From: a virus
Strand: one strand, 5' to 3'
Length of the DNA stretch: 56,692 nt
Virus record (IMG/VR): IMGVR_UViG_3300030331_004412
Location: 1-56,692 of that record
Below, piece after piece: positions 2,031 through 49,012 of the stretch (positions within the stretch are counted from its first letter, which is position 1; every line of letters begins with the position of its first letter). The notes beneath the pieces were generated by a model that worked only from the letters and a program-made list of their open reading frames with translations, was not told the origin of the DNA and searched no databases. The position numbers and the translations under genes are program-made.

Positions 2031-4316
2031 ATGGCTTTATACGACGACGCATCATTCATTTTTTTGGCCTCTGGAGCTGCTGGAGTGGAGAACAAAGACT
2101 TTAGCAAGGCGCTCTGCGTAAAGCCTGTTGAGGTAACGGGACCTGAGCTTTTGAGCAGCTCTGATGGAGATTGGACCCTTGGCACTGGGGGTTCAATTAG
2201 CAATGGTGTAATAACTGTAGACGGAAGTCAAAGCAGTTCTATAAATCTTTTTCAGAATATCACAGACTTAGACAATAAGTCAGCAAAAATTTCTTTTACA
2301 ATAAGTAACCACTCTGCAGGTACAATACAGGGTCAGTTTTTTGGCGGCAATGAAGTAACGCCTTCTGTTGGACAAAATGGTACGTTTGCTTTTACAAAAG
2401 ATATAGGTGGATCTCACAACGGAAATGCTGGGTTTGGTGTTTCTAGTGATTTCGAAGGAACGATTAGTAATATCAGCATCAAAGAGGTTACAACAAAAGC
2501 TGCAGACTTTGACATCAGCAGAGACGCCAACCTCGACGCCACTCGCGTAGGACCTACTGGGTTGATCGAGAAGGGGAGGGAGAATAAATTCTTATACAGC
2601 AATAACTTTTCTAAAAATATTGGAACGTGGGGTCATAATGGTTTGTCTTCCGTGATTGGCATTCACAACTCACTAGGTCAGGAAGGATACGACGGAACGA
2701 ACAACGCCTCATACATCAGGGCTAGTGATGCAACTGGTGTTCATAAAGTTCTATTAAGCGCTCAGGCAGGAGTTTCTGTAAATAGTCAAGCAGTTCAAAC
2801 GATAAGTATTCATGCAAAACCATTAGGATATACTTTTCTTGCAATCACAACCCAAAGCGGAAATCAAGAAGCTTATTTTGATCTTGCAAATGGAACTGTA
2901 GGAACGACAGAAAGCGATGTTATTGAAGCAAAGATAACTCCCGCAGGTAACGGTTATTTTAGATGCTCTATGACTGTAAACGCTGATATAGCCATAACTC
3001 AGATAAACTTTAATATCGCTTTAGAGGACAACAATCATTCGTTTACAGGAGACCCAAATAGAGGCGGGACAGACAACGGGGGTATCTTTATTCAAGATGC
3101 CCAGTGGGAACTTGGACTGGTCCCAACAGAAATTATCTCTAGCAATGGATCTGCAGGCACAGCTGGCATTAAAGAAGATGAACCGCGCTTTGACTACCCT
3201 CTTGCTGGTGGTGCCCCGTCGTTGTTGTTGGAGCCGCAGAGACAAAATGAGTTGTCTTACAGCGAATACTTTGAAGGATGGGCATCCACAAGTAATGCTA
3301 CACTCACGAGCAATGATGTCATTTCTCCTGAGGGCGTTAAAAACGCTACGAAGCTCCTTGCCACTGCAGGAGATACTAATCACCAAGTAAACAGCGAAAG
3401 CCTTACTGTTGCAAGTGGTGCTGTATCAGCATCCATCTTTGCTAAGAAAGGAAACACCAATGTTGTTAGGTTACGACTTAATGGCACAACAAGCCAAGTC
3501 AGAGCGTGGTTTGATTTACAGAACGGAACAACCTCAGTTGACGGCAACGGAACCTCAACAATCACAGAGATGAATAATGGGTGGTTTCTATGCACTGTGA
3601 CTGAGGCAGGAAACACGAATACAGGTGTATCCCTTCAGGTTTTCATTAATGAAAACCTTGATGAAACTACATTTGCTGCTGATGGAGATGAGTTTATCTA
3701 TATCTATGGTGCCCAGCTAGAGGAAGGTAAATTTTGCACCTCTTACATCCCTACTCACGGGACTGCTGCTACGAGGAGCGCTGATACCATCGCTGATCTG
3801 ACATCTATACCTAGCGTCAACACTTCTACCTACACTTTCTTTGCTCATGTGTCTCAAGCTAATACTGGTGGCACGGGCAACAGAGGACCAAGAATGAAAA
3901 ACGCATCCAATGATGCTTTGATGGGTTACTTCATAAATAACTCTGACCAAAAGCAATTTTTCTTAGATCCAGATTCTGCAGGCGGCGGGAGCAATAGAAC
4001 GTTTTCTACAACTGACATTTCCCCAGTTAGCAGTACTCAGCTCGCAGGCGATGAAGTCAAGTACGCCTTTGTCATTAATGGAACATCAGTAAAATGTTTT
4101 GTAGACGGAAACACTTTATTTAATGGAACAGCCTCTGGTGTTGTTACAGCCAACAGAATTGTTTTTAACACTAGTGACGGTACTCCAGATCATATTAAAA
4201 GTGTCATTTACTTTCCATCGGCAATAAGCAATATTGATGCCTTAGTGCTTACCGATACAAACTATGGGTCATACAGCGAGATGGTCAATTCATTAAGTTA
4301 CACTCAACATGGCTAA
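2031..4316 (+). CDS. Receptor-binding / tail fibre protein, first paralog
   Basis: A 761-aa secreted-style beta protein with two jelly-roll carbohydrate-binding-like repeats. Repeat 1 begins at GLIEKGREN and ends at a WELGLVPTEII-type motif. Repeat 2 begins at LLLEPQRQNELSYSEYF and ends with YGAQLEEGKFCTSYIPT. This end signature is common in marine phage tail fibres and lectin-like adhesins. The last 180 residues look like a concanavalin-type sandwich. The N-terminal 180 residues differ from the second paralog and may mediate virion attachment. The next gene overlaps it by 8 nt. Likely binds host surface glycans; the exact ligand cannot be read from sequence. Confidence 0.75.
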   Translation: MALYDDASFIFLASGAAGVENKDFSKALCVKPVEVTGPELLSSSDGDWTLGTGGSISNGVITVDGSQSSSINLFQNITDLDNKSAKISFTISNHSAGTIQGQFFGGNEVTPSVGQNGTFAFTKDIGGSHNGNAGFGVSSDFEGTISNISIKEVTTKAADFDISRDANLDATRVGPTGLIEKGRENKFLYSNNFSKNIGTWGHNGLSSVIGIHNSLGQEGYDGTNNASYIRASDATGVHKVLLSAQAGVSVNSQAVQTISIHAKPLGYTFLAITTQSGNQEAYFDLANGTVGTTESDVIEAKITPAGNGYFRCSMTVNADIAITQINFNIALEDNNHSFTGDPNRGGTDNGGIFIQDAQWELGLVPTEIISSNGSAGTAGIKEDEPRFDYPLAGGAPSLLLEPQRQNELSYSEYFEGWASTSNATLTSNDVISPEGVKNATKLLATAGDTNHQVNSESLTVASGAVSASIFAKKGNTNVVRLRLNGTTSQVRAWFDLQNGTTSVDGNGTSTITEMNNGWFLCTVTEAGNTNTGVSLQVFINENLDETTFAADGDEFIYIYGAQLEEGKFCTSYIPTHGTAATRSADTIADLTSIPSVNTSTYTFFAHVSQANTGGTGNRGPRMKNASNDALMGYFINNSDQKQFFLDPDSAGGGSNRTFSTTDISPVSSTQLAGDEVKYAFVINGTSVKCFVDGNTLFNGTASGVVTANRIVFNTSDGTPDHIKSVIYFPSAISNIDALVLTDTNYGSYSEMVNSLSYTQHG
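2565..2584 (+). repeat. 20-nt identity shared by the two fibre genes (first site)
   Basis: ATCGAGAAGGGGAGGGAGAA occurs here and again at 4474-4493, at equivalent positions in the paralogous fibre genes. It is a possible seed for gene conversion or recombination between them. Confidence 0.8.
3738..3757 (+). repeat. 20-nt identity shared by the two fibre genes (second site)
   Basis: ACCTCTTACATCCCTACTCA occurs here and at 5620-5639, encoding the TSYIPTH end of the second jelly-roll in both paralogs. Third-position identity within otherwise diverged genes suggests recent exchange or a conserved recombination point. Confidence 0.8.
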
Positions 4317-6162
4317 ACCAGCAATTATCATAGGGGACGGAAAGTTCGCAACGAAAGACACCAAGTTTCTTGCTTATGCTCAGGGGGATAGCTCTAGCAG
4401 GTTCGTAGCCCGTGAGCTTACTTATGATAGGGGATCTAACCTCACAGCTACAAGGGTTGCATCTAATGGCCTTATCGAGAAGGGGAGGGAGAACCTGATC
4501 TTACAGTCTAATAGTTTTGATACCACATGGTCGTCAGTGAACGTAACAGTTACTGGCGGCCAAGAAGGTTACGATGGAAGCAGCAATGCTTGGGAGTTGA
4601 AGATGACTGGAGCCCAAGATGGAGATAATGAAGCCCGCATTAGACAAACTGGCATCTCTGTTTCTGGAGTATGCACGTATAGCGTTTTTGCAAAAGCAGG
4701 CAATGTAAATTTTATTCGCCTTATTGGTATAGTAAGTGGCAGCCCAAATCCACTCGCATTCTTTGATCTTAGTGGAAATGGATCAGTAATATCCAGTACC
4801 TCTTCAGTCGCTGCAACAAGTATCGAGTCTTTTGGCAATGGCTGGTTTAGGGTTTCTGTTACTCATCAAGGTGCCGCCAATAATATTACGGACGTTAGGA
4901 TCAATATTTCAGATGGGGATGATGATGTCCACGTTCCAACAGGTTCTTTCATCTACATCCAAGATTCTCAGCTAGAAGCTGGTCTTGTCGCCACTGACGT
5001 TATTACCACTACATCTGCTGCAGTCAAAGCTGGTATCCTTGAAGATCAGGCTAGAGTAGATTACTTAAGCAACTCTAACGGTTATATCTTGCTTGAGCCT
5101 ACGAGACAGAACCTTATTCTTAATTCAGAACACATTGGAGGGTCTACGTGGACAGATCTAAGCTCTGGCGTCACAGCTGTAACTAATGATGCTGTGTCCC
5201 CAGAAGGCGTTAAGAACGCCACGAAGCTTGTTATTGCTGACGGAGATTCCGCAGGTGCAGAATGGAGGCTTGCTTCTAATTTACCTGTAACTAACACAAC
5301 TAAATATGCTTTTAGTGTATTTGCAAAAGCAGCAGAGTTTGATGGTATTCAGCTAGATGTAAGTGACAGTCGATTTGGTAATGCTAATGTAACTGCAGAT
5401 CTTACTAATGGTACAATCACCGCAGGAGGCGGCACAACATCTTCTAGCATTGAAGACCATGGTGATGGTTGGTATAGAATTATTATGGTCGCCACTTGCA
5501 TCTCAACGGGTGATAGTGCTGTAATATTTAGATTGCATGCATCGGGGATAAACGGTACAGGCGATGGCTCTAAAGGTATTCACGTCTATGGAGCTCAATT
5601 TGAAGAGGGTGCTTTTGCTACCTCTTACATCCCTACTCATGGGACCGCCGCAAGTAGATCAGCAGAAGGACTCCCCTCAAGCGCTAGTTCAGTTGACATG
5701 AGTAGCTTCATGGAGGGTGATGATGTTACTCTTGTGGTTCATTTCGCTGACAACCCATCTGTTTCAAGAGACAGCAGTTCAGCTGGAATACAGCTCAGCA
5801 ATGGAGGTGCGGCCACTGGAAAAGTAGCAATTTATAGAAATAACGACGCTGCGAGACAGCTTCACGCAGTGTTCTTTGGCACTGATGGCAACAATGTAGG
5901 TGTTCCGATAACTTCATCTGCACCAAAAATTGCTATTAGGCGGGTAAGGTCATCTAATGCGTTCACTGTTTATATGGATGGGGCCCCTTTAGATGATAGC
6001 GGTAGTGCAACTGATTCAAACGGAGACTTCACAAACAGCAACTTTGATGTTACGTGGGATGACTTAAAACTGTCAGGTATCAACTCTACAGTCAAAATAC
6101 TTTCTTTAAAGCTGTTTGATTCAGCATTGACAAATCCAGAAATGGAAAGCGAAACATCATGA
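4309..6162 (+). CDS. Receptor-binding / tail fibre protein, second paralog
   Basis: A 617-aa paralog of the preceding fibre. It has the same two-repeat plan: GLIEKGRENLILQSNSF starting repeat 1, LLEPTRQNLILNSEH starting repeat 2, and YGAQFEEGAFATSYIPTHGT closing it. A short, different N-terminus (about 50 aa) precedes the repeats, and the C-terminal sandwich is also diverged. ATG at 4309 overlaps the previous stop, and the next gene overlaps by ATGA. The pair could assemble together or give two receptor specificities. Confidence 0.75.
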   Translation: MAKPAIIIGDGKFATKDTKFLAYAQGDSSSRFVARELTYDRGSNLTATRVASNGLIEKGRENLILQSNSFDTTWSSVNVTVTGGQEGYDGSSNAWELKMTGAQDGDNEARIRQTGISVSGVCTYSVFAKAGNVNFIRLIGIVSGSPNPLAFFDLSGNGSVISSTSSVAATSIESFGNGWFRVSVTHQGAANNITDVRINISDGDDDVHVPTGSFIYIQDSQLEAGLVATDVITTTSAAVKAGILEDQARVDYLSNSNGYILLEPTRQNLILNSEHIGGSTWTDLSSGVTAVTNDAVSPEGVKNATKLVIADGDSAGAEWRLASNLPVTNTTKYAFSVFAKAAEFDGIQLDVSDSRFGNANVTADLTNGTITAGGGTTSSSIEDHGDGWYRIIMVATCISTGDSAVIFRLHASGINGTGDGSKGIHVYGAQFEEGAFATSYIPTHGTAASRSAEGLPSSASSVDMSSFMEGDDVTLVVHFADNPSVSRDSSSAGIQLSNGGAATGKVAIYRNNDAARQLHAVFFGTDGNNVGVPITSSAPKIAIRRVRSSNAFTVYMDGAPLDDSGSATDSNGDFTNSNFDVTWDDLKLSGINSTVKILSLKLFDSALTNPEMESETS

Positions 6163-9941: not shown

Positions 9942-12061
9942 GCGGTCTTGTAAAAATAAAAGGTTATAATGAGCTTGCTATCTCAATTTGCCCCAAGGGT
10001 ACGCAGGGTGAGATTGTTGAGCTTGGTGGGCTGGTCATTGTTCTTCCCGCTGTCCCTCCCAAGAAACAAATACAGGGATATGGAAAACCAAAGGACATGC
10101 AAATGTGGGAGAGGGTTTCTATGCCCGAGGAGCTGTCTAGGATTAAGTCTATGGATGAGTGGGGGGAGATGCCACGGGAGTTTCGAGAAAAGTTTTCTTC
10201 GTATATCGAGGAGGAGTTTCGGCGTCGGCGTGAAGGGTTTTGGTTTTTTCGGAATGGTGAGCCTACATATATTACAGGGAGGCACTACATGATGCTTCAA
10301 TGGACTCGGATGGACATAGGTTATCCGAGCTTTCTTTTGTTCCAAAGGGATATTTTCTTACATTTAGCTGCGTGTGAGGCGGACCCCCGATGTATCGGGC
10401 AGCTATACACTAAGTGCAGACGAAGCGGGTACACGAATATCTGCTCGTCTGTGCTTTTAGATGAAGCGACACAAGTCAAGGACAAGCTTCTTGGCATCCA
10501 GTCTAAGACTGGTAAGGACGCTCAAGAAAATATATTCATGAAGAAGGTGGTCTACATGTTTAGACACTACCCCTTCTTCTTTAAACCTATTCAGGATGGA
10601 ACAACCAATCCGCGCATGGAGCTGGCTTTTCGCGAGCCGTCTAAGAGAATCACGAAGAACAATAAGACTACGCAGACGGGCGAGGCTCTTAATACGGTCA
10701 TAAACTGGAAGAACACCACCAACAATGCATACGACGGAGAGAAGCTCCACTTAATGTATCTCGATGAAGCTGGTAAGTGGGAGAGGCCAACAGACATTCG
10801 AGATGCTTGGCGTATTCAACGAACCTGTTTGATTGTTGGTAGAAAGATTGTAGGGAAGGCTTTGGTTGGCAGCACGGTCAACCCCATGGACAAGGGTGGA
10901 AAGGAGTACAAGGATCTCTGGCGTGACTCTGATCCAAATGAAAGGAATGCAAACGGAAGAACTCGCAGCGGCCTCTATCGCTTGTTTATCCCATCCTTCC
11001 ATTCTCTAGAAGGATTTTTTGATGTGTTCGGAAGCCCCGTTGTTGACGACCCAGAATCTATCATTGACGGAATTGACGGGGAGCAAATCTATATGGGAGC
11101 TAGATCCTATCTCAAGAACGAGAGAGATAGCTTGAAGCACGATGCCAGCGAGCTTAATGAGGTTACTCGTCAGTTTCCTTTTACTGAGGATGAAGCCTTT
11201 CGAGACAGTGTTGATGGCAGTTTGTTCAATGTCGGCCAGATATATGAGCAAGTTCAATACAACGACGAGCTTTTCCCAAACCCTATTGTGGTTGGCAATC
11301 TTGTTTGGAAAGGTGGCGAACAAGATACCGAGGTGGTTTTTAAACCAGACCCGAATGGTAGGTTTCGTGTAGCTTGGATGCCGCCCCCAGAATTAAGAAA
11401 CCAAAACAAAACAGAAAGGGGTAAACGCATTGCACCAAATGCAGAGCTGGGGGTAGGCGGGGTTGACTCCTACGACCTTGATGCCACCGTCGATGGACGG
11501 GGGTCGAAGGGAGCGCTACACCTGTACAACAAGTTTCATATGGAGCATCCTTCCAGCATGTTTGTTTTGGAGTATGCGTCCCGTCCGCCTCTGGCCAAAA
11601 TCTTTTATGAAGACTGTCTGATGGCCGCTGTTTTCTACGGTTACCCACTGTTAATCGAAAACAACAAGTACGGTATCGCAAGATACTTTGAGACAAGGGG
11701 TTACGATGGTTACCTAATGAACAGACCCTCTCATTTGTCTGCACCTAACGCCAAGGTAAACGTTAAAACAAAGGGTATCCCGTCAAACTCTCAAGAGGTT
11801 ATACAGGCTCACGCTCATGCCATTGAAGCTTACATCCACGATCATGTAGGCATCAATAGAGATACGGGAGAGTATGGGAAGATGTACTTTAACAGAACTC
11901 TAGAGGATTGGATTGGATTTAAAATTGACAACAGAACCAAGTTTGACCTTTCAATAAGTTCTGGTTTGTGCCTGCTTGCAGCGCAAAAAGCAAAGGTTAA
12001 AAAGAGGGAGTCTAACTTCCATGAAGCCAAGTTTTTTCGCCGCTATAAGCCCATAGGCTAA
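9938..12061 (+). CDS. terL: Terminase large subunit
   Basis: A 707-aa DNA-packaging motor: ATPase plus nuclease. The N-terminal region has the FFRNGEPTYITGRHYMMLQW motif seen in crAss-like and related TerL proteins. A Walker-A-like loop is at KCRRSGYT (159-166) and Walker B with catalytic Glu at LMYLDEA (about 271-277). The RNase-H-like nuclease starts at GVGGVDSYDLDA, where Asp510 would bind metal. Family lengths of 650-800 aa match. No small subunit was recognised nearby; the 43-aa basic protein or HNH protein are the only upstream candidates. Followed by a promoter and the portal. Confidence 0.92.
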   Translation: MSGLVKIKGYNELAISICPKGTQGEIVELGGLVIVLPAVPPKKQIQGYGKPKDMQMWERVSMPEELSRIKSMDEWGEMPREFREKFSSYIEEEFRRRREGFWFFRNGEPTYITGRHYMMLQWTRMDIGYPSFLLFQRDIFLHLAACEADPRCIGQLYTKCRRSGYTNICSSVLLDEATQVKDKLLGIQSKTGKDAQENIFMKKVVYMFRHYPFFFKPIQDGTTNPRMELAFREPSKRITKNNKTTQTGEALNTVINWKNTTNNAYDGEKLHLMYLDEAGKWERPTDIRDAWRIQRTCLIVGRKIVGKALVGSTVNPMDKGGKEYKDLWRDSDPNERNANGRTRSGLYRLFIPSFHSLEGFFDVFGSPVVDDPESIIDGIDGEQIYMGARSYLKNERDSLKHDASELNEVTRQFPFTEDEAFRDSVDGSLFNVGQIYEQVQYNDELFPNPIVVGNLVWKGGEQDTEVVFKPDPNGRFRVAWMPPPELRNQNKTERGKRIAPNAELGVGGVDSYDLDATVDGRGSKGALHLYNKFHMEHPSSMFVLEYASRPPLAKIFYEDCLMAAVFYGYPLLIENNKYGIARYFETRGYDGYLMNRPSHLSAPNAKVNVKTKGIPSNSQEVIQAHAHAIEAYIHDHVGINRDTGEYGKMYFNRTLEDWIGFKIDNRTKFDLSISSGLCLLAAQKAKVKKRESNFHEAKFFRRYKPIG

Positions 12062-40800: not shown

Positions 40801-42158
40801 ATGCCCCGAACATTGAAGCGTTGGCAAAGGAGTTGGATCAAGCTGCTGATTCAGAGAAAGGCAAAAGGGGTTTGGCTTGGATGGGGAAGAATGGACTAGA
40901 GATGCTGACCACAATGTCTGACGCTTTTGAAAACAGCATTAGACTCTCTACCTATGTGAACGCTAGGAAGATGGGGATCGCTCGTGATAGGGCTGCGTTT
41001 ATGTCGAAGGAGGTGACCGTAAACTTCAATAGGTCAGGTGAGTGGGGGACAGCGCTGAACTCAACATACATGTTCTTTAACGCCTCTATGCAAAGTAGTA
41101 AGAGGCTGGTAAAAACCATGAACTCAAAAAGCGGAAGAGCTGTAGGAACAGGGATGGCTTTGACTGGAGCCATGATTACAGAATACAACAGGTCTGTATC
41201 TGGTGAGGACGAAGATGGAGTGTTGTTCTACGACAAAATTTCTCCATACGAAAGAGCTCGGAACATCATTATTATGAGGTCAAATGGCAAGGACTACGTC
41301 AAGATTCCTCTTGCGTACGGGTATGGGCTGTTTCACAACGTAGGGGAACAAGTCAGCAGTGTGTCTCGCGGTGGCCGCACAGCTGGAGAGGCCACATTTG
41401 AGATGGCTGATGCCACCCTTAGTGCGTTCTCCCCTGTAACGTTCGGTAGTTCAGATAACGCTCTTATCAAAGCTGGTAAAACATTTACACCATCTTTGGC
41501 AATGCCAATCGTAGACCTTATGGTTAATGAAGACTGGCAAAGCAACAGAATATACTTTGACTTTGAGGGAAAGGCTGACTCAGAGCAAGGCTTTGACTCT
41601 CCCGAGTTTGCCAAAGACTTTTTCCAAGGGTTGAACAAGATGACTGGGGGAACAGAGATTGCAGGTGGTGATGAGTTTTATTCTATCGACGTCAACCCAG
41701 ACATTCTTACCTACCTGTTGGAGTCTTACGCTGGGGGTATAGGTCAGGCGGCTGTAAAAACAGGTGAAACCGTGGCGTCTGTTATCGAAGGAGAGGTTCC
41801 TGATATCGGCAGGTTCCCCGTTCTGTCTAAGTTCTACAGTAAAGAAAATTATGCACAGCTTACGGACTATTTTGACTATGCTGACAACCTAGAGATTGCA
41901 GAAAAAAGAGTCAAAGAGTTTAAGAACGATGAGATTAGAGAGCGATTCAAGGGCGAGGGTAGGTTCAGAGGCATCGGAGTATTGGAGACTACAATGAAGA
42001 AATCAAAGAAAGGAATCAAAGACCTAGAGGAGCAGCTCGACAAAGCTTATGCAAGCGAAAACAAAAAGGAAATTGAAAGACTTGAGGGGTTGATCAACAG
42101 AAACATGAAGATGTTCAACAAAGCATTTAGACAATACGTTGCAAAAACAGAACAGTAA
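37884..42158 (+). CDS. Large internal virion protein (LPD38-like)
   Basis: A 1424-aa protein. The middle part FFSAANRLRSKTFTSLNPEF followed by FMPNFVRDIQAGFANL matches the LPD38-type large polyvalent domain (NPxFxxxNxxRD), found in giant internal proteins. Upstream is a long Ala/Gly-rich segment (AAAVQAGGMLAGAPLGAAGV) that could span membranes, and a helical region with basic coiled coils. The C-terminus is a charged helix (KGIKDLEEQLDKAYASENKK). Likely ejected into the cell envelope to form a DNA conduit, as T7 gp16 does. No transglycosylase motif was seen; that activity is encoded at 523. Confidence 0.7.
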   Translation: MEDQEQLLKDFVASAQKYGYDYDVIMPKFPEFEGYDVEMLKGYVSKVEEMNQGSDVYDYTEANSAFPDLFPQKKKDQTEAPSPLEQTSEAAFAESTAVSGMPSGGSDSPATRTRVTPEGYSFEELSSEKPFIEGSIGDFVRAIPWIGNDIDDWARAWSTGAQARGQAAPAMDMLIPTYGEMTGEDFNKEDYREAAEALAAEVRRYENFREENGISDELMAWNKSIQENGHGMYGLFKTIWEHKGDLRNIAGQWALESLSTQLNEEGIEKAAAVQAGGMLAGAPLGAAGVGAAGVATLPVSMATLSGVTAATQFLVDELKQRVGEDFNAEAILDALDDDTFRNTLRKDAGKYGLVIGFVDGVTFKAGAGVSREMGKALQGGWMPKTREFLAVGFTEAEGSMLGEAAASEAVGEPATAEALFQEGVGGAFATPITMTYRGVQDLHNRGIDNQNASVINQLNSRAVYTANGQRVQKQDLLDIVSVMTAEEFENANIEVKDDQATADLIQRRYEQIKKGEKVVPLPSKKPNKIQQAKDFFRRKVIDTLDPLVALQRSAQEARGERVSRETDMDAAFSMFSSRTANRMKNVINVAQSMGTALKDAGLDPATARKGLDRFLYARHAPERNRVMTQRYKDRIKQIQDEAKDEKRNITPKEEKEIKTLEGYIEENRGSGMSDADAQAYMDGLTPEERAGYEAAAKLHDEVVADTRKTLREAGLESEETVDLFESQYEFYTPLRGFAELDPEKALKQADLSAPNAFDVRGSGIVRAEGRITEASDMSTAALNQNAMTHMRAEKNKVGRTVYDFANANPNEEVYSTMDQEQFGKLKPSQKKRAVGVRIDGETKYVVFGEKYAQHAALLQDFSPQKMGAFMQFFSAANRLRSKTFTSLNPEFFMPNFVRDIQAGFANLAADADLTTKEGRELVAKTMKESTKNLRYMLGSMVPSVREKIKANDPEYFKFLQEFEEDGGVTGWGYAPNIEALAKELDQAADSEKGKRGLAWMGKNGLEMLTTMSDAFENSIRLSTYVNARKMGIARDRAAFMSKEVTVNFNRSGEWGTALNSTYMFFNASMQSSKRLVKTMNSKSGRAVGTGMALTGAMITEYNRSVSGEDEDGVLFYDKISPYERARNIIIMRSNGKDYVKIPLAYGYGLFHNVGEQVSSVSRGGRTAGEATFEMADATLSAFSPVTFGSSDNALIKAGKTFTPSLAMPIVDLMVNEDWQSNRIYFDFEGKADSEQGFDSPEFAKDFFQGLNKMTGGTEIAGGDEFYSIDVNPDILTYLLESYAGGIGQAAVKTGETVASVIEGEVPDIGRFPVLSKFYSKENYAQLTDYFDYADNLEIAEKRVKEFKNDEIRERFKGEGRFRGIGVLETTMKKSKKGIKDLEEQLDKAYASENKKEIERLEGLINRNMKMFNKAFRQYVAKTEQ

Positions 42159-42595
42159 TGGAGCAGAAAAAGAAAATCAAAGACACAGGTCTTGGCAAGT
42201 GGCTTAAGTCCAAAGCACCTAACGTACTTAGTGTTGTAGGGGACTTGCTTCCTGATCAGGGTGGGCTAGGCATTGTCAAGAACTTGATTGAAAAAGACCC
42301 TGACGTAGACACCGCCGAAGGCACAGCTGCGGTAGATGCAGAGATTCAGTTTCAGAACAACGTCACCTCCAGATGGCAAGCAGATATGGGTAGCGATGTA
42401 AAGCTTGCTAAGCTGATCAGACCTATCACTTTGATTGCATTGATGAGCATGTTTATGGTGACGATGGTGGCCGACAGCATGGACAACTGGGCATTTAACG
42501 TAAAAGATTCTTACGTAGATTTGTTACAGATCCTTATGCTCACTGCATTTGGTGCGTATTTCGCTGGTAGAACCATCGAGAAAGCAAAGAAATGA
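42158..42595 (+). CDS. Holin candidate
   Basis: A 145-aa membrane protein. After a soluble N-terminus (VLSVVGDLLPDQGG) come two hydrophobic segments: PITLIALMSMFMVTMVADS (about 90-108) and YVDLLQILMLTAFGAYFAG (about 118-136), then a basic tail. The pattern matches putative holins of marine Bacteroidota phages (related in layout to the GTA-type 3TM holin). It starts at TAATG and the next gene begins with ATGA. It would release the two wall enzymes at lysis. The soluble N-terminus is long for a holin, so an ejection-associated membrane role is possible. Confidence 0.6.
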   Translation: MEQKKKIKDTGLGKWLKSKAPNVLSVVGDLLPDQGGLGIVKNLIEKDPDVDTAEGTAAVDAEIQFQNNVTSRWQADMGSDVKLAKLIRPITLIALMSMFMVTMVADSMDNWAFNVKDSYVDLLQILMLTAFGAYFAGRTIEKAKK

Positions 42596-44202
42596 GAGTA
42601 AGGCGCATGCAAAACGGGGGCGATGTAGAGTCATTGCTTAAAATGCTAGAGAGTCGCCGCGTTCCTCAACGCGCTGCTTCTTCAGCCCCCGCTGAATCCA
42701 CAAAAAGAAACATTGCGCCACCTACTAGAGCTCGGCTTCTTGATGCTGACAGCCCCGCAGTTCGACCACGTCCAACAATTAGTCAGCGCAGCGTAGACTA
42801 CGAGGACCCAGCTTCACTTCTTCAGATGGTGTCAGCCCCAACTCAAACCCTCGGGGCTTTGAACAGGATGGCTGTTTCTGGTGACTTCAGGAGGCCAACA
42901 GCTGCTGAGCTAGACGCTTTTGGGGAGAGGCCAATGGACCTCCCCATGATGTTTACGGGGCTGGGTGACGCCGCCGAGGTGGAAAGGGCCTTGGGTGCTG
43001 GAAGATATGGATCTGCTTTAGGAACAGCTGCGCTTTCATTTACGCCAATTCCTGCGCGGTCGATTCGTTTTCTAAGAGAAAATGTTCCTATGGTTTTTAG
43101 GAGCGCTGACTTTTCTGAGATCGCAGATGACGTGTTGATGGATTTATCTGAGGTCCCTGACGCACCTGTTGGTAGCGGCTTAAATGATCCGTTTGACATT
43201 GAGAATCTTTTCTTTTCTCAGAGTCAAGCTGCTGAGCGTGTGGCTCAACTAGACCCGTTACAGAAATCTGATTTTTTTGACGACTTTGAGGAGCTGGCTA
43301 TGGGGCTGGACCTTGATCAACCTAAGCTGGCAGACCAAATTAGAAAAGCATCTCAAGCCCTCGAGGAATCTGCAGGTAAAATAGCAGCTGACATGGAGGG
43401 AGTTAAGTTCCCAGACAAGGTGTTTAGAACTGGAGGGGACAGACCCCTAGAGTTTACTCTTGACGCCGATGTCGGCATGGGCAGGATGGAGTATACAGGC
43501 TACGACTTGAAAGACAAAAGCAGCGGGATTACTTATGACTCTGTTGCTGAATACAAAAGAGCAGTAGGTAGGCAGCCAGATATTGCAGCATCCGCTGATA
43601 TCGTATCAAACAAAAACAGAATGGACCTTGATGGCAAAAGGTCTTATGCGGACTATGCATTTAACATCAAAGTGCCTTCAGACGCGCCAGCAACAACAGC
43701 CTTGAGACTGATGCGTAAGCTGTTGAACTCAGTTCCCAACGGAAAGATTATTGAAGCGGGTGGAAGTTTGAGTGCCGACTCCTATCCGTTTGTGATGTCT
43801 GGCCTCAAGAGAGGGAAGGCAGAGCTGGCCAAAAGTGCTAGGGTGCCCTCGGGTGTATCGTACAAGCCTCTCAACGCTATGGGTGAGAACTACACATCTC
43901 TCCCCAAGATGCTCAATATTCCAAAGAAGGACGCTATGCAGTTGTTTGAAACAACAAAGGTCAATGTGTACGAGGGAATTTCAGTTCGACCCGAGGTATT
44001 GAAGCAGCAGCTGTGGGAGAAACACAAGGGTGCAATCAACGCCGCTCTCAAGGATTACGGATTGCCTCCAGCAAAGTGGGACAATGCAAGCAAGGATGTG
44101 CTTATGCCTCACCCATATCTTAAAAAACTTGAGGACTACAGAAGGGGTGGACGTATGGCAATCAAAAAGAAAAACAACAAATCGTTTGGCATAGCAAGAT
44201 GA
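42592..44202 (+). CDS. Large hypothetical protein
   Basis: A 536-aa protein starting with a basic stretch (VRRMQNGGDVESLLKMLESR). A Gly/Ala segment (AEVERALGAGRYGSALGTAA) is followed by an acidic helical middle; the C-terminal 200 residues form a compact mixed domain (NSVPNGKIIEAGGSLSADSY; SYKPLNAMGENYTSLPKM) ending in a basic tail. No family recognised. ATGA overlaps on both sides couple it to the holin candidate and the secreted protein. It could be a further packaged protein or an envelope effector. Confidence 0.6.
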   Translation: MRVRRMQNGGDVESLLKMLESRRVPQRAASSAPAESTKRNIAPPTRARLLDADSPAVRPRPTISQRSVDYEDPASLLQMVSAPTQTLGALNRMAVSGDFRRPTAAELDAFGERPMDLPMMFTGLGDAAEVERALGAGRYGSALGTAALSFTPIPARSIRFLRENVPMVFRSADFSEIADDVLMDLSEVPDAPVGSGLNDPFDIENLFFSQSQAAERVAQLDPLQKSDFFDDFEELAMGLDLDQPKLADQIRKASQALEESAGKIAADMEGVKFPDKVFRTGGDRPLEFTLDADVGMGRMEYTGYDLKDKSSGITYDSVAEYKRAVGRQPDIAASADIVSNKNRMDLDGKRSYADYAFNIKVPSDAPATTALRLMRKLLNSVPNGKIIEAGGSLSADSYPFVMSGLKRGKAELAKSARVPSGVSYKPLNAMGENYTSLPKMLNIPKKDAMQLFETTKVNVYEGISVRPEVLKQQLWEKHKGAINAALKDYGLPPAKWDNASKDVLMPHPYLKKLEDYRRGGRMAIKKKNNKSFGIAR

Positions 44203-46340
44203 TGTATAGAGCTCTGATTATTTTTTTGATTCCAACGTTTGCTGTAGCTCAGCAGGGATGGGTGTCTATTGCCATACAAGGGGACGCATACGGGAATGAG
44301 ACTACGTGGTTGGTGCGAGACACTAGCAACGCCATAGTTGCAGGCTCTGCTCCACTGCAGGGGGAGTATCCATATGTAGAGGCATTCCTGCCTTTGCCAT
44401 TGGGCGATTACACCTTTACCATCTATGACTCTTTCGGTGATGGAATTTGCTGTGGTTTTGGAGAGGGGTGGTTCTCTATCAACACCTGTGCTCTAGACAC
44501 TACGGTATACGACTTCGGAACATCAGAGCAAACCATTCCGTTTGAGGTGTTGGCATGCCCACCTCCAATCTTTGGATGCATGCAGATGGGTGCCTTGAAC
44601 TATCATCCATGGGCTACTGCCCCAGCCCCGTGTAATTTTCCGCCAGTGCAATGTGAGCTGGGCAACAACAACATCTTAGTTACCGTTACCCCTGATACAT
44701 ACGCTGCCGAAATTAGCTGGGAACTGATGACCCTGCCAGATAGCACCATTGCGGCAGAGGGTTCAGATTATTCGATCGTAGGTGTTCCAGACATAGACGC
44801 TGTGTGCCTACCTGTGGGCTCAGATTTTGTGATCAATGTCTACGACAGCTTTGGGGACGGGATGTGCGGCAGTTGCTATGGCGGGGTTGACGGGAACCTG
44901 TCAGTAACTACGCTGTGTGGAGATACGCTGTATTACGTAGGAGGTCAGACACAATATGAAGCGATATCAAGTGATACTATCACTATTGAACCATGCTTTC
45001 CTCCGATCCCTCAAGGATGCACAGACTCATGGTTTACAGAGTACGACCCCAGCGCTATCATTGATGATGGTAGCTGTCAAACAGAAGTAATCTTAGGGTG
45101 CACAGATCCTGATGCCATTAACTTCAGCGAGTACGCAAACACGCTTGAGACAGAAGACAACTGTGAGTTTACTCTTACGCTCACAGATGGAGCAGGTGAT
45201 GGTTGGTTTGGTAGCTGGATAGGGGTTCAGCAGGGTGACGAAATATTCGGTCCGTTCACTATGCACCCGAACGATGGATTCGAAAAAGAAATTCAGATCC
45301 CACTGTACTCTGAGGAGATGACAAGGGTCATGTTTTTTACTCAAGGCAACGCAGAGACAACCGCCTCTCAGTGCGGGTTCTACTTTGATGGACCCAACGG
45401 TGTGTTCATGGAGGGTGGAACCAACCCATGGTCAGATGCAATTAAAAAGTTTCCATTCAAGTACAAGGGCACGCCTGTGTGTGCAGACTTTTGTGAGGAT
45501 GCTGTTGTAGGGTGTACGCTTAGTTTCGCTTGTAACTACGACGCTGACGCAAATGTAGATGGGGACTGCACCTTCCCTATTGAATACTACGGGTGTGACA
45601 ACGAATGCATCAATGACGCTGACGGAGATGGCGTGTGTGATGAGCTCGAGGTGATTGGGTGCCAAGACCCGACAGCTTACAACTACGATGAATCAGCTAC
45701 CGACGCAGGAGATTGCGAACCTGTGGTGTTTGGTTGCACCGACCCCACCATGTTTAACTACAACGAGGAGGCCAACACAGAAAACAACAGCTGCATCCCG
45801 TACATCTATGGATGCATGGACCCCGAGGCCATCAACTACGACGAAGATGCAAACACAGAGCTCGATGGCTCTTGCATCGCTTCTGTTTCTGGCTGCATGG
45901 ATCTTGACGCTTACAACTACAATGTTGAGGCAAACGTTCCAAACAATGACGATTGCTTGTATGATGCTGGCTGCATAACTGGGGCTGGAGAGCCATACTG
46001 GGCCAACGATTACTGCTACTCATGGGTAATCGAGGTAGACCCCTACTGCTGTGAGACAGCATGGGATGCGGTGTGCGAGGAAATGTATGACTACTGTGGG
46101 GCAGGTGTGACATCAGTGGATGTAGCAGTAAGATCACTACTTCATTTCTTTCCAAACCCAACACGAGGCTTGGTGAATATTCAGGCACCGATCGGGACCG
46201 TAATCACCTTGTTTGATGCAAGGGGAAGAGTTATTCAGACCACGACACGGAACACTGTTGAGCTGCCAGTTTCTGGACCGTATGTAATCATGGCGAACTA
46301 CAAGGGTAGAATCAAGAAAGAAACAATCGTGAGACAATGA
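44199..46340 (+). CDS. T9SS-sorted, Cys-rich repeat surface protein
   Basis: A 713-aa predicted secreted protein. Sec signal peptide at 1-18 (LIIFLIPTFAVAQ). Three beta units carry DSFGDGICCGFGEGW-type loops, then about seven Cys-rich repeats of the GCxDPxAxNYxxxAxxxxxxC type (for example GCMDPEAINYDEDANTELDG), and a thrombospondin-3-like DADGDGVCDELE. The last 66 residues (HFFPNPTRGLVNIQ, then GPYVIMANYKGR and a KETIVRQ end) form a type A T9SS sorting domain. This domain directs host proteins through the outer membrane to the surface. A phage gene with it should place its product on the infected cell's exterior, or on a virion maturing there. Repeats probably bind calcium. Confidence 0.85.
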   Translation: MMYRALIIFLIPTFAVAQQGWVSIAIQGDAYGNETTWLVRDTSNAIVAGSAPLQGEYPYVEAFLPLPLGDYTFTIYDSFGDGICCGFGEGWFSINTCALDTTVYDFGTSEQTIPFEVLACPPPIFGCMQMGALNYHPWATAPAPCNFPPVQCELGNNNILVTVTPDTYAAEISWELMTLPDSTIAAEGSDYSIVGVPDIDAVCLPVGSDFVINVYDSFGDGMCGSCYGGVDGNLSVTTLCGDTLYYVGGQTQYEAISSDTITIEPCFPPIPQGCTDSWFTEYDPSAIIDDGSCQTEVILGCTDPDAINFSEYANTLETEDNCEFTLTLTDGAGDGWFGSWIGVQQGDEIFGPFTMHPNDGFEKEIQIPLYSEEMTRVMFFTQGNAETTASQCGFYFDGPNGVFMEGGTNPWSDAIKKFPFKYKGTPVCADFCEDAVVGCTLSFACNYDADANVDGDCTFPIEYYGCDNECINDADGDGVCDELEVIGCQDPTAYNYDESATDAGDCEPVVFGCTDPTMFNYNEEANTENNSCIPYIYGCMDPEAINYDEDANTELDGSCIASVSGCMDLDAYNYNVEANVPNNDDCLYDAGCITGAGEPYWANDYCYSWVIEVDPYCCETAWDAVCEEMYDYCGAGVTSVDVAVRSLLHFFPNPTRGLVNIQAPIGTVITLFDARGRVIQTTTRNTVELPVSGPYVIMANYKGRIKKETIVRQ

Positions 46341-46546
46341 GACCCATCAAAAGAAAAAAGAAAAAAGACCCTGTAGATTACAGCACTCCATACGAGGGCG
46401 CTATGGGTAAGAGCAAAAGTCGTCAGGCTGCAGAAAAGATGTGGTCGAGCAAAGCCTCCAAAGAAGAAATGCAACTTGGCTCAAAAACAACCATGGATCA
46501 AGACGGAAACTACATAGTTAGAACTAGACTTTCATCGAAGGCATGA
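46337..46546 (+). CDS. Small basic protein
   Basis: A 69-aa protein with a Lys-rich start (RPIKRKKKKDP) and a polar helical body. It joins the secreted protein (ATGA) to the outer-membrane barrel gene (ATGA). No known family. It may bind nucleic acid or simply be a virion protein. Confidence 0.6.
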   Translation: MRPIKRKKKKDPVDYSTPYEGAMGKSKSRQAAEKMWSSKASKEEMQLGSKTTMDQDGNYIVRTRLSSKA

Positions 46547-47589
46547 AGTACTTTATTTCAACCGTTTTGTTTTTTTTGCCCTTGCTTTTGCTTGGGCAAA
46601 GCGACTTCTACAGAAATGTGCTGAGAAGAGCTACCTTCTACGCAGCTGTAAACGGAGGTAACTCTGTGTCAGATCAGGACGTGTTCTCCGTAGCTACAGG
46701 GCCTCTTACAACAGACATTGTCGAAACGCCTTTTGATTACTCCCTGACGCTTGGGGTCAGAAAGATTGCAAGGTTTGGGTACGAGAACAGAGCCAACATC
46801 TTTTACGACGGCACAGAAAAGACATACGGGGATGCTGCTACGGTGGGCAAGTACGATGGGTTTGAGTTCCTTGCTGAGGCTGACTGGCGCAGGCAGCAGG
46901 GAAAAAACTTTCTCGATCAAGATTACTTTGCTAGATATGTGGCTGACGACTGGGTAGCAAAGGTAGAATACCTGCAAGACGGCTTTGCTGATGTTAGATA
47001 CTTCGAGGCTTCAGAGCGGGGAAGATTGAAGATCGGCAAGAAGCTGTCCCTGAATGCAGGGGTTGTGCAAAGAATATCTGAGCCCTACGGCTACGACCCG
47101 CTGCAACAATGGCTTCTGGACAACAACCAGATACACTACACCGCCTTGGCTTTGGAACAGGGGTACAGCGTTGATGTAAACACAGGGGAGTTCTTTTCTC
47201 CTAGTGGGGAGATCGTTGCCAACGATCAGGCAGTATGGGAGCAGGTAGTAATCCCACAGGTCCTTGACGATTACGTTGCTGAGAAAAGATCTGAGCTTGA
47301 AAGCCAGTGGCTGTACTCAGCCGTGGTGGGGTTCGACTTTTACCACTATGAAAAAGATTTTTGGTTGCACTCGTGGGGCAACGTGATGCCCTACCACCTC
47401 GACACAGGTGATGAGTATTCGTATCACAACTTTGTGAACAGCAGCCAGTGGGTGGACCTTGGCTTCGGATTGGTGTTCGGGACTAAGATTACCAAGAGCC
47501 TTGGCGTATTCGCTGAAGGCAAGTACAACAGATATTGGAACAGGGAGTGGCACGACTTCTCTGTGGGACTCAACTACATACTACTGTAA
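46543..47589 (+). CDS. Outer-membrane beta-barrel protein
   Basis: A 348-aa protein with a signal peptide (ISTVLFFLPLLLLGQ, cut near residue 19). The rest has alternating amphipathic strands typical of outer-membrane barrels (FDYSLTLGVRKIARFGYENR; KIGKKLSLNAGVVQRISEPY; WVDLGFGLVFGT; HDFSVGLNYILL at the C-terminus). A similar protein (DFYRNxLRRxTFYxxVNGGN) occurs in other marine Bacteroidota phages, in my recollection. It should insert in the host outer membrane late in infection. It could mask receptors, exclude superinfecting phages, or help release. Confidence 0.75.
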   Translation: MKYFISTVLFFLPLLLLGQSDFYRNVLRRATFYAAVNGGNSVSDQDVFSVATGPLTTDIVETPFDYSLTLGVRKIARFGYENRANIFYDGTEKTYGDAATVGKYDGFEFLAEADWRRQQGKNFLDQDYFARYVADDWVAKVEYLQDGFADVRYFEASERGRLKIGKKLSLNAGVVQRISEPYGYDPLQQWLLDNNQIHYTALALEQGYSVDVNTGEFFSPSGEIVANDQAVWEQVVIPQVLDDYVAEKRSELESQWLYSAVVGFDFYHYEKDFWLHSWGNVMPYHLDTGDEYSYHNFVNSSQWVDLGFGLVFGTKITKSLGVFAEGKYNRYWNREWHDFSVGLNYILL

Positions 47590-47873
47590 TGGCACAACAA
47601 ATCGGAGAAGACACTAAAGTAACGTTAGACCTTAAGACAATAGGTATGGCGGCAGCAGGCATAGGGACAATCGTAGCCATGTGGTTTGCCTTGCAGGCAG
47701 ACATTGCAGAAGCAAAGGAACTTCCTGTCCCTCCTGACCCAGAGATTACGCGCATGGAGTTCGACATGAAGGACCAGCTAGTGCGCCAAACTATTATGAC
47801 CACTCAGGAAGACGTGACTGAAATCAAGCAAGACATTAAACGCATTGAAGAAAAAATAGACCAACTAAAATGA
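47589..47873 (+). CDS. Membrane-anchored coiled-coil protein (inner spanin candidate)
   Basis: A 94-aa protein starting at TAATG 47589; a longer upstream frame overlaps the barrel gene. One transmembrane helix (GMAAAGIGTIVAMWFALQA, about 19-37) is followed by a long charged coiled coil to the end (TQEDVTEIKQDIKRIEEKID). One membrane helix plus periplasmic coiled coil is the layout of an inner spanin. The lipoprotein at 48942 could be its outer partner, though it is on the other strand and larger than typical Rz1. Confidence 0.65.
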   Translation: MAQQIGEDTKVTLDLKTIGMAAAGIGTIVAMWFALQADIAEAKELPVPPDPEITRMEFDMKDQLVRQTIMTTQEDVTEIKQDIKRIEEKIDQLK

Positions 47874-47876
47874 CAA

Positions 47877-48242
47877 ATGAAAATCCTATCAGCCCTATGT
47901 GTATTCTTTGCATTCTTATTGGCGGCGGTTTCTGTAACGCCTGCAGATAATATTGAACTATGTGGATCGGGAATCTGTGTTGTTGAGTTCAACGCTAGCT
48001 TCAACTCACAGAACAGCGTACCATGGATCGAAAAGCTAAACGACTGCGAGACTGCCCGTGTGGACATCGCTACTGCTCCAGACCTTCAGAAGAAGCACAA
48101 GATTGTTGTCGTCCCGACGATTGTTGTTTTCAATGAGGGAGAGGAACAGGAGAGGTTTCAGGCGAACATCATGATGACATTGGAAGCGACTATTGACGAC
48201 GTTCAAGGAGCCGTTGACGACATCATGTTGAACGACTTTTAA
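47877..48242 (+). CDS. Thioredoxin-fold protein lacking CxxC
   Basis: A 121-aa exported protein (signal/anchor LSALCVFFAFLLAAVSV). CVVEFNASFNSQNSVPWIEK aligns with the thioredoxin active-site region, but CGPC is replaced by residues without cysteine. VVVPTIVVFNEGEE keeps the cis-Pro (Pro80) and the strand that follows. So the fold is kept while redox chemistry at the usual site is not. Related forms occur in other Bacteroidota phages to my knowledge. It may act as a periplasmic protein-binding scaffold. Its stop overlaps the stop of the convergent minus-strand gene. Confidence 0.75.
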   Translation: MKILSALCVFFAFLLAAVSVTPADNIELCGSGICVVEFNASFNSQNSVPWIEKLNDCETARVDIATAPDLQKKHKIVVVPTIVVFNEGEEQERFQANIMMTLEATIDDVQGAVDDIMLNDF

Positions 48243-48483: not shown

Positions 48484-48645
48484 CTAGACTATTGGTGGCT
48501 GTCGAGACAGCATTTCTAAAAAGTCAACCATGTCAATAACCCCGTTCCCGTTGAAGTCCAGCGCATACGCATCATCCTCGGGATCGGGAGATGAACCATA
48601 AGCCTGAAGCAGCAACAGCAAATCCATTATGTAAGTTGACCACAT
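48484..48645 (-). CDS. Dockerin-like EF-hand mini-protein
   Basis: A 53-aa frame from ATG 48645 (or 47 aa from ATG 48627), below many gene-finder limits. MDLLLLLQAYGSSPDP is followed by LDFNGNGVIDMVDFLEMLSR, a dockerin-type calcium loop (D-x-N-x-N-G-x-I-D-x-x-D) plus helix; the first part is the second half of a preceding dockerin repeat whose loop is missing. The frame is the same as the upstream lipoprotein, separated by one TAA and 17 sense codons, so it could be a readthrough or broken C-terminus of it. Its own TAG lies 2 nt before the next ATG. A GTAAGT/ACTTAC dyad (48631-48654) covers its start region. Confidence 0.6.
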   Translation of the reverse strand: MWSTYIMDLLLLLQAYGSSPDPEDDAYALDFNGNGVIDMVDFLEMLSRQPPIV

Positions 48646-48678: not shown

Positions 48679-48942
48679 TTACGGCCTATCAACCCTTACC
48701 CTAATAACAAATACATCTGGGTTGTCGGTGCTTACTAGGGTGTACTTAGTCCCCATGTAGTCATAGTATGACGTGTTGAGCACCATCTCGCGCTCAAAAT
48801 AAGACACAGGGTAAGCCCCATCCCAAACCGTTGGCACGATCAAGTCAAGATTGAATTTTTCAGGGTGTACAAAAACCTTTTTAGGAGTTGCACCACACCC
48901 AGTCAAAAACAAAATAGCCAATACTGTTTTGATAATCTTCAT
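48679..48942 (-). CDS. Lipoprotein
   Basis: An 87-aa protein starting at ATG 48942 (an upstream frame ATG gives a less signal-like start). KIIKTVLAILFLTGCGATPK is a lipoprotein signal peptide with lipobox LTGC; Cys16 would be lipidated. The mature part is a small beta domain (DLIVPTVWDGAYPVSYFERE; YTLVSTDNPDVFVIRVRV). It could block superinfection, or be the outer spanin partner of the coiled-coil protein. The next in-frame ORF is dockerin-like. Confidence 0.75.
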   Translation of the reverse strand: MKIIKTVLAILFLTGCGATPKKVFVHPEKFNLDLIVPTVWDGAYPVSYFEREMVLNTSYYDYMGTKYTLVSTDNPDVFVIRVRVDRP

Positions 48943-48947
48943 CAACA

Positions 48948-48955
48948 CTAAACTA
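48948..48955 (-). promoter_or_regulatory. Weak -7-like box TAGTTTAG
   Basis: On the minus strand TAGTTTAG lies five bases before the lipoprotein ATG, the same place as the leaderless boxes on the plus strand. It has one mismatch to TAnnTTTG. It could allow the lipoprotein to be expressed apart from the operon. Confidence 0.3.
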
Positions 48956-49012
48956 TGCATGCACTTAAGTAGCTGCAAGCCAATGCCGTATAATGATTAT
49001 TATGGGGTAAAG

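Follow-up and report, generated by a model that had tools for sequence, protein, structure and literature searches.

Why would a virus encode a protein bearing the export address of a bacterial secretion system? The question is raised by a gene, here called T, in IMG/VR virus record IMGVR_UViG_3300030331_004412, of which positions 1 to 56,692 form the 56,692-nucleotide stretch analyzed here as the window. An earlier note on this DNA had described T as a phage gene whose product joins a Sec signal peptide to a host-type sorting domain of the type IX secretion system (T9SS). Both assignments hold, and the sorting domain is kept across hundreds of phages under purifying selection. The note's interpretation, in which the phage would use the host machine to display a calcium-binding protein on infected cells, perhaps to block other phages, alter adhesion or bind progeny virions, is supported in part. 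The earlier note overlooked that T belongs to a four-gene module (T, B, c and x), and this membership changes the functional reading. With a probability of about 0.72, the module is a phage envelope device that depends on the T9SS to display a protein at the cell surface.

A type IX sorting domain on a phage protein

The open reading frame (ORF) of T, which had been located exactly, and its two terminal signals are as follows.

44199 to 46340, plus strand: T, a secreted Cys-rich protein with a C-terminal type A T9SS sorting domain (713 amino acids, ATG start)
44199 to 44249, plus strand: Sec signal peptide of T, residues 1-17, with cleavage predicted before Q18
46140 to 46337, plus strand: type A T9SS C-terminal domain (CTD) of T, residues 648-713

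The C terminus of T is a genuine type A T9SS sorting domain that is conserved by selection, and T is a new member of the type A T9SS cargo. A search with the hidden Markov models TIGR04183 and PF18962 had been proposed as a check on this assignment. Both models are matched by 26 of 27 aligned T relatives, with best E values of 2.6e-11 and 3.4e-12, respectively. The window protein alone scores below the curated cut-offs (E 2.1e-4 and 21.2 bits with TIGR04183, cut-off 23; E 2.5e-3 and 18.5 bits with PF18962, cut-off 27), so the check succeeds for the family and not for this single sequence. PF18962 was matched with E 7.4e-6 in a search of the window record. The TIGR04183 cut-off is exceeded in 32 of 40 records, one of them a bacterial metagenome-assembled genome (MAG) rich in such domains. 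The T CTDs match the type A model TIGR04183, and the type B model TIGR04131 is absent among their NCBIfam matches.

Other properties of the family agree with this assignment. The domain is found in 164 of 167 complete matches to the T profile, and two of the three exceptions are unrelated repeat proteins. Among 136 non-identical relatives, 135 have the PNP motif, and all have both the GxY/GxH motif and the terminal hydrophobic-basic motif. The C terminus of a family profile built from 51 relatives matches the solved CTDs of T9SS cargo from a lipase (7pzj, 1.9e-7) and NucA (8glk, 3.1e-6), as well as 8glj (7.9e-5) and gingipain RgpB (5hfs, 0.009). In Foldseek comparisons, the modelled domain superimposes on 8glk_D with a TM score of 0.71 (2.6 A) and on the RgpB CTD 7pq4 with a TM score of 0.62. 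For the two relatives compared, dN/dS in the CTD is 0.04/0.21 (about 0.19) and 0.09/0.61 (about 0.15), which indicates purifying selection. A chance match of a short C-terminal domain is ruled out by the relatives, the profile search and the fold.

At the other end of the protein, the signal peptide reads MMYRALIIFLIPTFAVA followed by Q18, which is invariant across the family alignment, and it obeys the 'Q rule' of Bacteroidota. A crude script recovers Q-rule peptides from 107 of 115 T sequences, and most of the remaining ones were recognized by eye.

A linked set of four envelope genes

Three further genes accompany T.

46543 to 47589, plus strand: B, a predicted 12-strand outer-membrane beta-barrel with a Q-rule signal peptide (348 amino acids)
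47589 to 47873, plus strand: c, one transmembrane (TM) helix followed by a conserved coiled coil (94 amino acids; predicted to lie in the inner membrane with a periplasmic coil)
47877 to 48242, plus strand: x, a secreted thioredoxin-fold protein without CxxC (121 amino acids)

The earlier note had suggested looking for other virus-borne T9SS domains, and these prove to be widespread. Relatives of T occur on at least 514 IMG/VR stretches (a first, narrower scan gave 38 loci), and an independent search finds B on at least 541 viral stretches. Clustering of neighboring genes revealed c and x as nearly universal neighbors of T. In most loci B, of about 350 amino acids, lies directly downstream of T, and the two genes often share a 4-bp overlap. 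When counts are restricted to loci with 5 kb of flank on both sides, B, c and x all lie within 5 kb of T in 74 of 74 cases. Conversely, barrels found independently have T nearby in 36 of 36 cases and all partners in 34. Near-copies among these loci bring the effective number down. Linkage is retained while gene order is shuffled among T-B-c-x, B-c-x-T and c-x-T-B arrangements. The four genes constitute a near-obligate, mobile and apparently virus-restricted envelope module, which as a whole fits no known family.

Some loci carry additional T9SS proteins. L031 and L034 have a second protein with a T9SS CTD (positions 10052-11287, 411 amino acids, with a signal peptide) inserted between T and B. 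The very large viral contig IMGVR_UViG_3300030098_004828 (245,646 bp; L131, L133) contains two barrel copies, each with a T9SS protein.

Distribution of the module

The window encodes a terminase, a portal, virion proteins, a holin and a primase/helicase with a BT4734-like domain. Its terminase, portal, virion and replication genes, together with its status as a virus record, rule out a bacterial fragment and justify the earlier description of this DNA as phage. The nearest relative of its terminase is from an uncultured podovirus from Manatee Spring (49%), followed by Flavobacterium elemo phages (41%). Cellulophaga and Tenacibaculum phages (Pachyviridae, Pervagoviridae) are further relatives, and crAss-like phages are distant ones.

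Two unrelated lineages of phages carry the module, one elemo/Pachyviridae-like and the other T4-like. Among 50 module-bearing records, 19 have a window-type terminase and 8 have a T4-type portal, with zero overlap; the others are fragmentary or belong to additional types. In a maximum-likelihood barrel tree, three changes between lineage labels are required, and well-supported branches force at least two of them. These changes indicate that the module has moved between unrelated phages.

Outside viral records the barrel is nearly absent. Bacterial genomes sampled at order level (298) and at phylum level (396), a few of which are in both sets, lack it, the sole exception being a 43-kb contig of a Flavobacteriales MAG (L040, NZWA01000061.1). 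The gene content of this contig suggests a T4-like phage (recombinase, helicase, ribonucleotide reductase, queuosine and amidase genes, named by eye from their translations), and its barrel is also present in IMG/VR at 100% identity, on an equally long contig (L055). The MAG that holds it has genes for SprA and for PorP-family proteins, along with dozens of matches to T9SS domains. A scan of GTDB genomes with T gave two matches, both to apparent phage contigs inside MAGs. The terminase relatives and the co-binned contig point to Bacteroidota as hosts. A module-bearing phage contig binned with a Nitrosopelagicus MAG (L041, CALBOT010000064.1) is probably a mis-binned fragment.

Known phages are similarly poor in these genes. 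Searches of 50,697 phage records returned zero matches to B, c and x and a single partial match to T, in the Cys repeats of Marine virus AG-345-P14. No TIGR04183 domain was found in 11 isolate or reference phage records, ten of them terminase relatives of the window, and no barrel was found in the same 11 records by a search that had no positive control.

These distributions bear on whether T is an artefact or a recently captured bacterial cargo gene with no phage function. In favor of such an origin, Bacteroidota commonly possess T9SS cargo domains and Cys repeats. However, there are hundreds of diverged viral copies, the four genes stay linked despite their shuffled order, the barrel has no bacterial homologue in the sampled genomes outside the phage contig, and purifying selection is evident. 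Chance capture is hardly credible.

The Cys-rich body of T

Two conserved or suggestive elements stand out between the terminal signals of T.

45615 to 45650, plus strand: thrombospondin-3 (TSP3)-like loop DADGDGVCDELE at residue 473, a putative calcium site recognized by motif only
45960 to 46097, plus strand: conserved Cys module YDAGCITG...DPYCCETAWDAVC...DYC, which precedes the sorting domain and occupies invariant columns of the family alignment

The body contains three beta-rich stretches with a DxxGDG motif in addition to the Cys repeats and the TSP3-like loop. Six strict matches to the GCxDPxAxN[YF] repeat lie at residues 300, 438, 487, 512, 538 and 565, and two looser ones are visible by eye at residues 126 and 273; the earlier note had counted 'seven or so'. 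The protein has 39 cysteines in total. The TSP3-like loop, likewise recognized before, is a candidate site for possible calcium binding. In the structure model of T (pLDDT 78, pTM 0.33), the individual domains are reasonable and their arrangement is not.

T is also a mosaic. The N-terminal part of the window protein is 83-84% identical to that of L005/L006-type phages. Compared with L021, the CTD is 90% and the neighboring barrel 96% identical, whereas the N-terminal part is merely 43% identical.

Similar repeats occur in a different setting in MH319765.1 (L042, Marine virus AG-345-P14), where an apparent tail-region gene at 3598-5142 has GCxDPxAxNY Cys repeats but lacks a T9SS domain and any evident signal peptide. 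The repeat by itself is therefore no evidence of secretion. This gene and a long L016 ORF with like repeats raise the question of whether T is instead associated with virions, as an adhesin or decoration protein whose CTD-like domain serves the particle rather than secretion. Ig-like domains are common in tail proteins, which also speaks for this assignment. We consider it quite improbable, since T, B and x carry Sec signal peptides, T retains the complete set of type A CTD motifs, and its pairing with an outer-membrane barrel is near-obligate. The tail-region relative lacks precisely the signal and the CTD.

The outer-membrane barrel

The model of B has 12 strands at moderate confidence (mean pLDDT 76). 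Foldseek matches it to NanC, FapF and autotransporter barrels, which are generic barrels only, and its TM score against 8gl6_F of the T9SS complex is 0.28. Q-rule signal peptides are found by a crude script in 129 of 130 B sequences. Mature barrels are mostly Cys-free and lack a twin-Cys tail. A profile search of solved structures with B gave no significant match. BFVD yielded one strong match, A0A516LKJ4 (E 3e-24), which could not be named, and tblastn against phage records found nothing.

That a barrel gene comes directly after the cargo gene, in many loci overlapping it by 4 bp, recalls the layout of type B cargo with SprF (PMC12618676). By this analogy B might be a new dedicated T9SS shuttle or anchor for T, equivalent to PorP/SprF, and the module a self-sufficient display device whose assembly is assisted by c and x. 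Actual membership of the PorP/SprF family is ruled out by profile: TIGR03519 matches none of 70 B members, and hhalign against five PorP proteins gives a probability of 5.6%. A new equivalent is rather unlikely as well, given that the CTD of T is type A, which is normally served by PorV, and that B has neither a profile relationship to PorP/SprF nor their twin-Cys tail.

Co-variation of CTD and barrel might be taken to favor such a pairing. On the whole, barrel similarity follows that of the CTD more closely than that of the N-terminal part of T. In loci with an upstream barrel, however, the N-terminal part follows it no less closely. Linkage thus accounts for the co-variation, which was rejected as proof of contact between T and B.

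Genes c and x and the lysis neighborhood

The small proteins c and x provide possible inner components. As judged from sequence, c has an N-terminal TM helix, and its coiled coil is highly conserved. PHROG spanin families are matched weakly, by 5 of 30 c members, and a profile search of solved structures gave no significant match. A small lipobox protein lies near the module in 2 of 83 loci; other types of outer-membrane spanin (o-spanin) were not searched for. The x family, of about 120 amino acids, belongs to the thioredoxin fold: PF00085 is matched by 25 of 25 members at E<=0.1 (best 9.2e-7), and profile matches to thioredoxins in the PDB reach 1.8e-9. The CxxC redox site is found in 0 of 167 x matches.

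The module is embedded in a longer gene chain that includes a holin.

42158 to 42595, plus strand: holin (PHROG match, phrog_3427), upstream in the same chain
42592 to 44202, plus strand: functionally unassigned ORF of 536 amino acids that separates the holin from T and is not conserved along with the module
46337 to 46546, plus strand: 69-amino-acid basic ORF between T and B, optional, with a counterpart in few relatives

The placement of T between holin-like and barrel genes had been noted correctly, with the 536- and 69-amino-acid ORFs intervening. The holin, the 536-amino-acid ORF, T, the 69-amino-acid ORF, B and c overlap successively by 1 to 4 bases, and 3 bases separate c from x. Minus-strand ORFs take over at 48242, where the chain stops. 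Promoter and terminator scans gave results near background. Just past the module, a 53-amino-acid ORF (48484-48645, minus strand) shows a loop of dockerin/EF-hand type, whose match to Dockerin_1 (E 2.7e-4) stays below cut-off. A small ORF with a lipobox (LTGC; 48679-48978, minus strand) may encode a lipoprotein.

Of 83 loci, 59 have a holin, an endolysin or a small holin-like gene no more than 3 kb from the module; counted here as holin-like, by eye, are 74-amino-acid two-TM and 94-amino-acid proteins that no PHROG match names as holins. Both lineages contribute, and all 7 T4-type loci with enough flank have a lysis-type gene within this distance. This proximity in both lineages favors a role in lysis or release, which we prefer tentatively, at somewhat short of even odds.

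A serious, if unlikely, rival retains T9SS display and changes its purpose. T and B at the surface might mask or alter the receptor on the infected cell or its debris, sparing progeny, as in receptor shielding or superinfection exclusion. A large exposed Cys-rich protein and an outer-membrane barrel would suit such a mask. The modular, recombining make-up of T, with an L005-type N-terminal part and an L021-type CTD and barrel, resembles that of a surface protein under diversifying pressure, and the module transfers among phages with common hosts. However, exclusion genes are usually early, whereas the module closes a late gene chain and neighbors holin and endolysin genes, and a mask leaves the strict need for c and x unexplained.

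Proposed mechanism

In our preferred reading, T, B, c and x would be a late-expressed envelope module. T, B and x would leave the cytoplasm via Sec because they have signal peptides, and B would insert into the host outer membrane. By means of its type A CTD, T would cross through the host type IX translocon to the infected-cell surface, the location that is the natural reading of its predicted signals. Type A CTDs are collected from the SprA translocon by the PorV shuttle, and in F. johnsoniae they are sufficient to send fused sfGFP out through the T9SS (PMC12618676); export of T by the host system is therefore expected. At the surface B may hold or position T, which probably resides at or near the barrel. 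The c protein would sit in the inner membrane as a spanin-like part with its coiled coil in the periplasm, x would be periplasmic, and both would supply the inner parts. Placed as predicted, the four products could between them cover all envelope layers. We infer that they are expressed late, form a complex and, as infection ends, act on the outer membrane, where they may time or complete lysis and release. A more ambitious version, which is doubtful, is a virus-encoded trans-envelope egress machine of four proteins, reaching from the inner membrane to the cell surface and used by unrelated Bacteroidota phages, whose outermost protein is delivered by the T9SS and which opens or remodels the outer membrane at release.

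Several observations weigh against this interpretation. The CTD of the window protein, taken alone, falls under both curated cut-offs. The matches of c to Rz-like spanin and holin families are weak, and equally many of its matches are to families without known function. Linkage accounts for the co-variation of CTD and barrel, which hence gives no sign of contact between T and B. The searches turned up no cultured phage that carries the module, and many Bacteroidota phages without it lyse nonetheless.

If export of T is confirmed, the T9SS would be an infection dependency for many Bacteroidota phages, linking phage biology to gliding and secretion. If the egress machine is real, it would represent a new class of apparatus relying on a host secretion system. 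Confirmed export would also make the four genes a defined set for testing a new way of dealing with the Gram-negative outer membrane. At least 514 viral stretches carry the module, whereas the 50,697 phage records searched contain no equivalent of it, which marks a sizeable blind spot of cultured-phage biology.

Comparison with known systems

No earlier report of virus-encoded T9SS cargo, or of virus use of the T9SS, was found in the open-access papers searched, a scope that leaves out most subscription journals and preprints. Q-rule signal peptides have been noted for Porphyromonas gingivalis phage proteins (PMC10367356). These proteins resemble those of the module in their adaptation to Bacteroidota Sec export, but the text of that paper never mentions the T9SS.

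Like the type A T9SS cargo RgpB, NucA and RemA, T has a Sec peptide, an Ig-like CTD and the PNP, GxY and terminal K-x-I-[IV]-[KR] motifs. Unlike them, it is encoded by phages within a virus-restricted four-gene module, and its body has no known enzymatic domain. The c protein recalls the spanins Rz/Rz1 in its predicted N-terminal TM helix and periplasmic coiled coil and in its location near holin and endolysin genes. It differs in that few members match spanins, and then weakly, that no constant o-spanin lipoprotein was found near the module, and that its constant partners are T, B and x. T5 Llp and phi80 Cor are small receptor-blocking phage proteins that lie at the outer membrane of the host and rely on no dedicated secretion machinery. 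T and B resemble them as phage proteins placed at this membrane, yet T has 713 amino acids, a T9SS address and a barrel of its own.

Because its function is only inferred, we rate the module as a variant of the cargo-plus-barrel theme and not as categorically new. In type B systems such as SprB-SprF (PMC12618676, PMC9143113), a cargo gene is likewise followed by the gene for an outer-membrane barrel of the PorP/SprF family. The phage module departs from them in the type A CTD of T, the lack of relationship between B and these barrels by profile, its two extra envelope genes and its viral origin.

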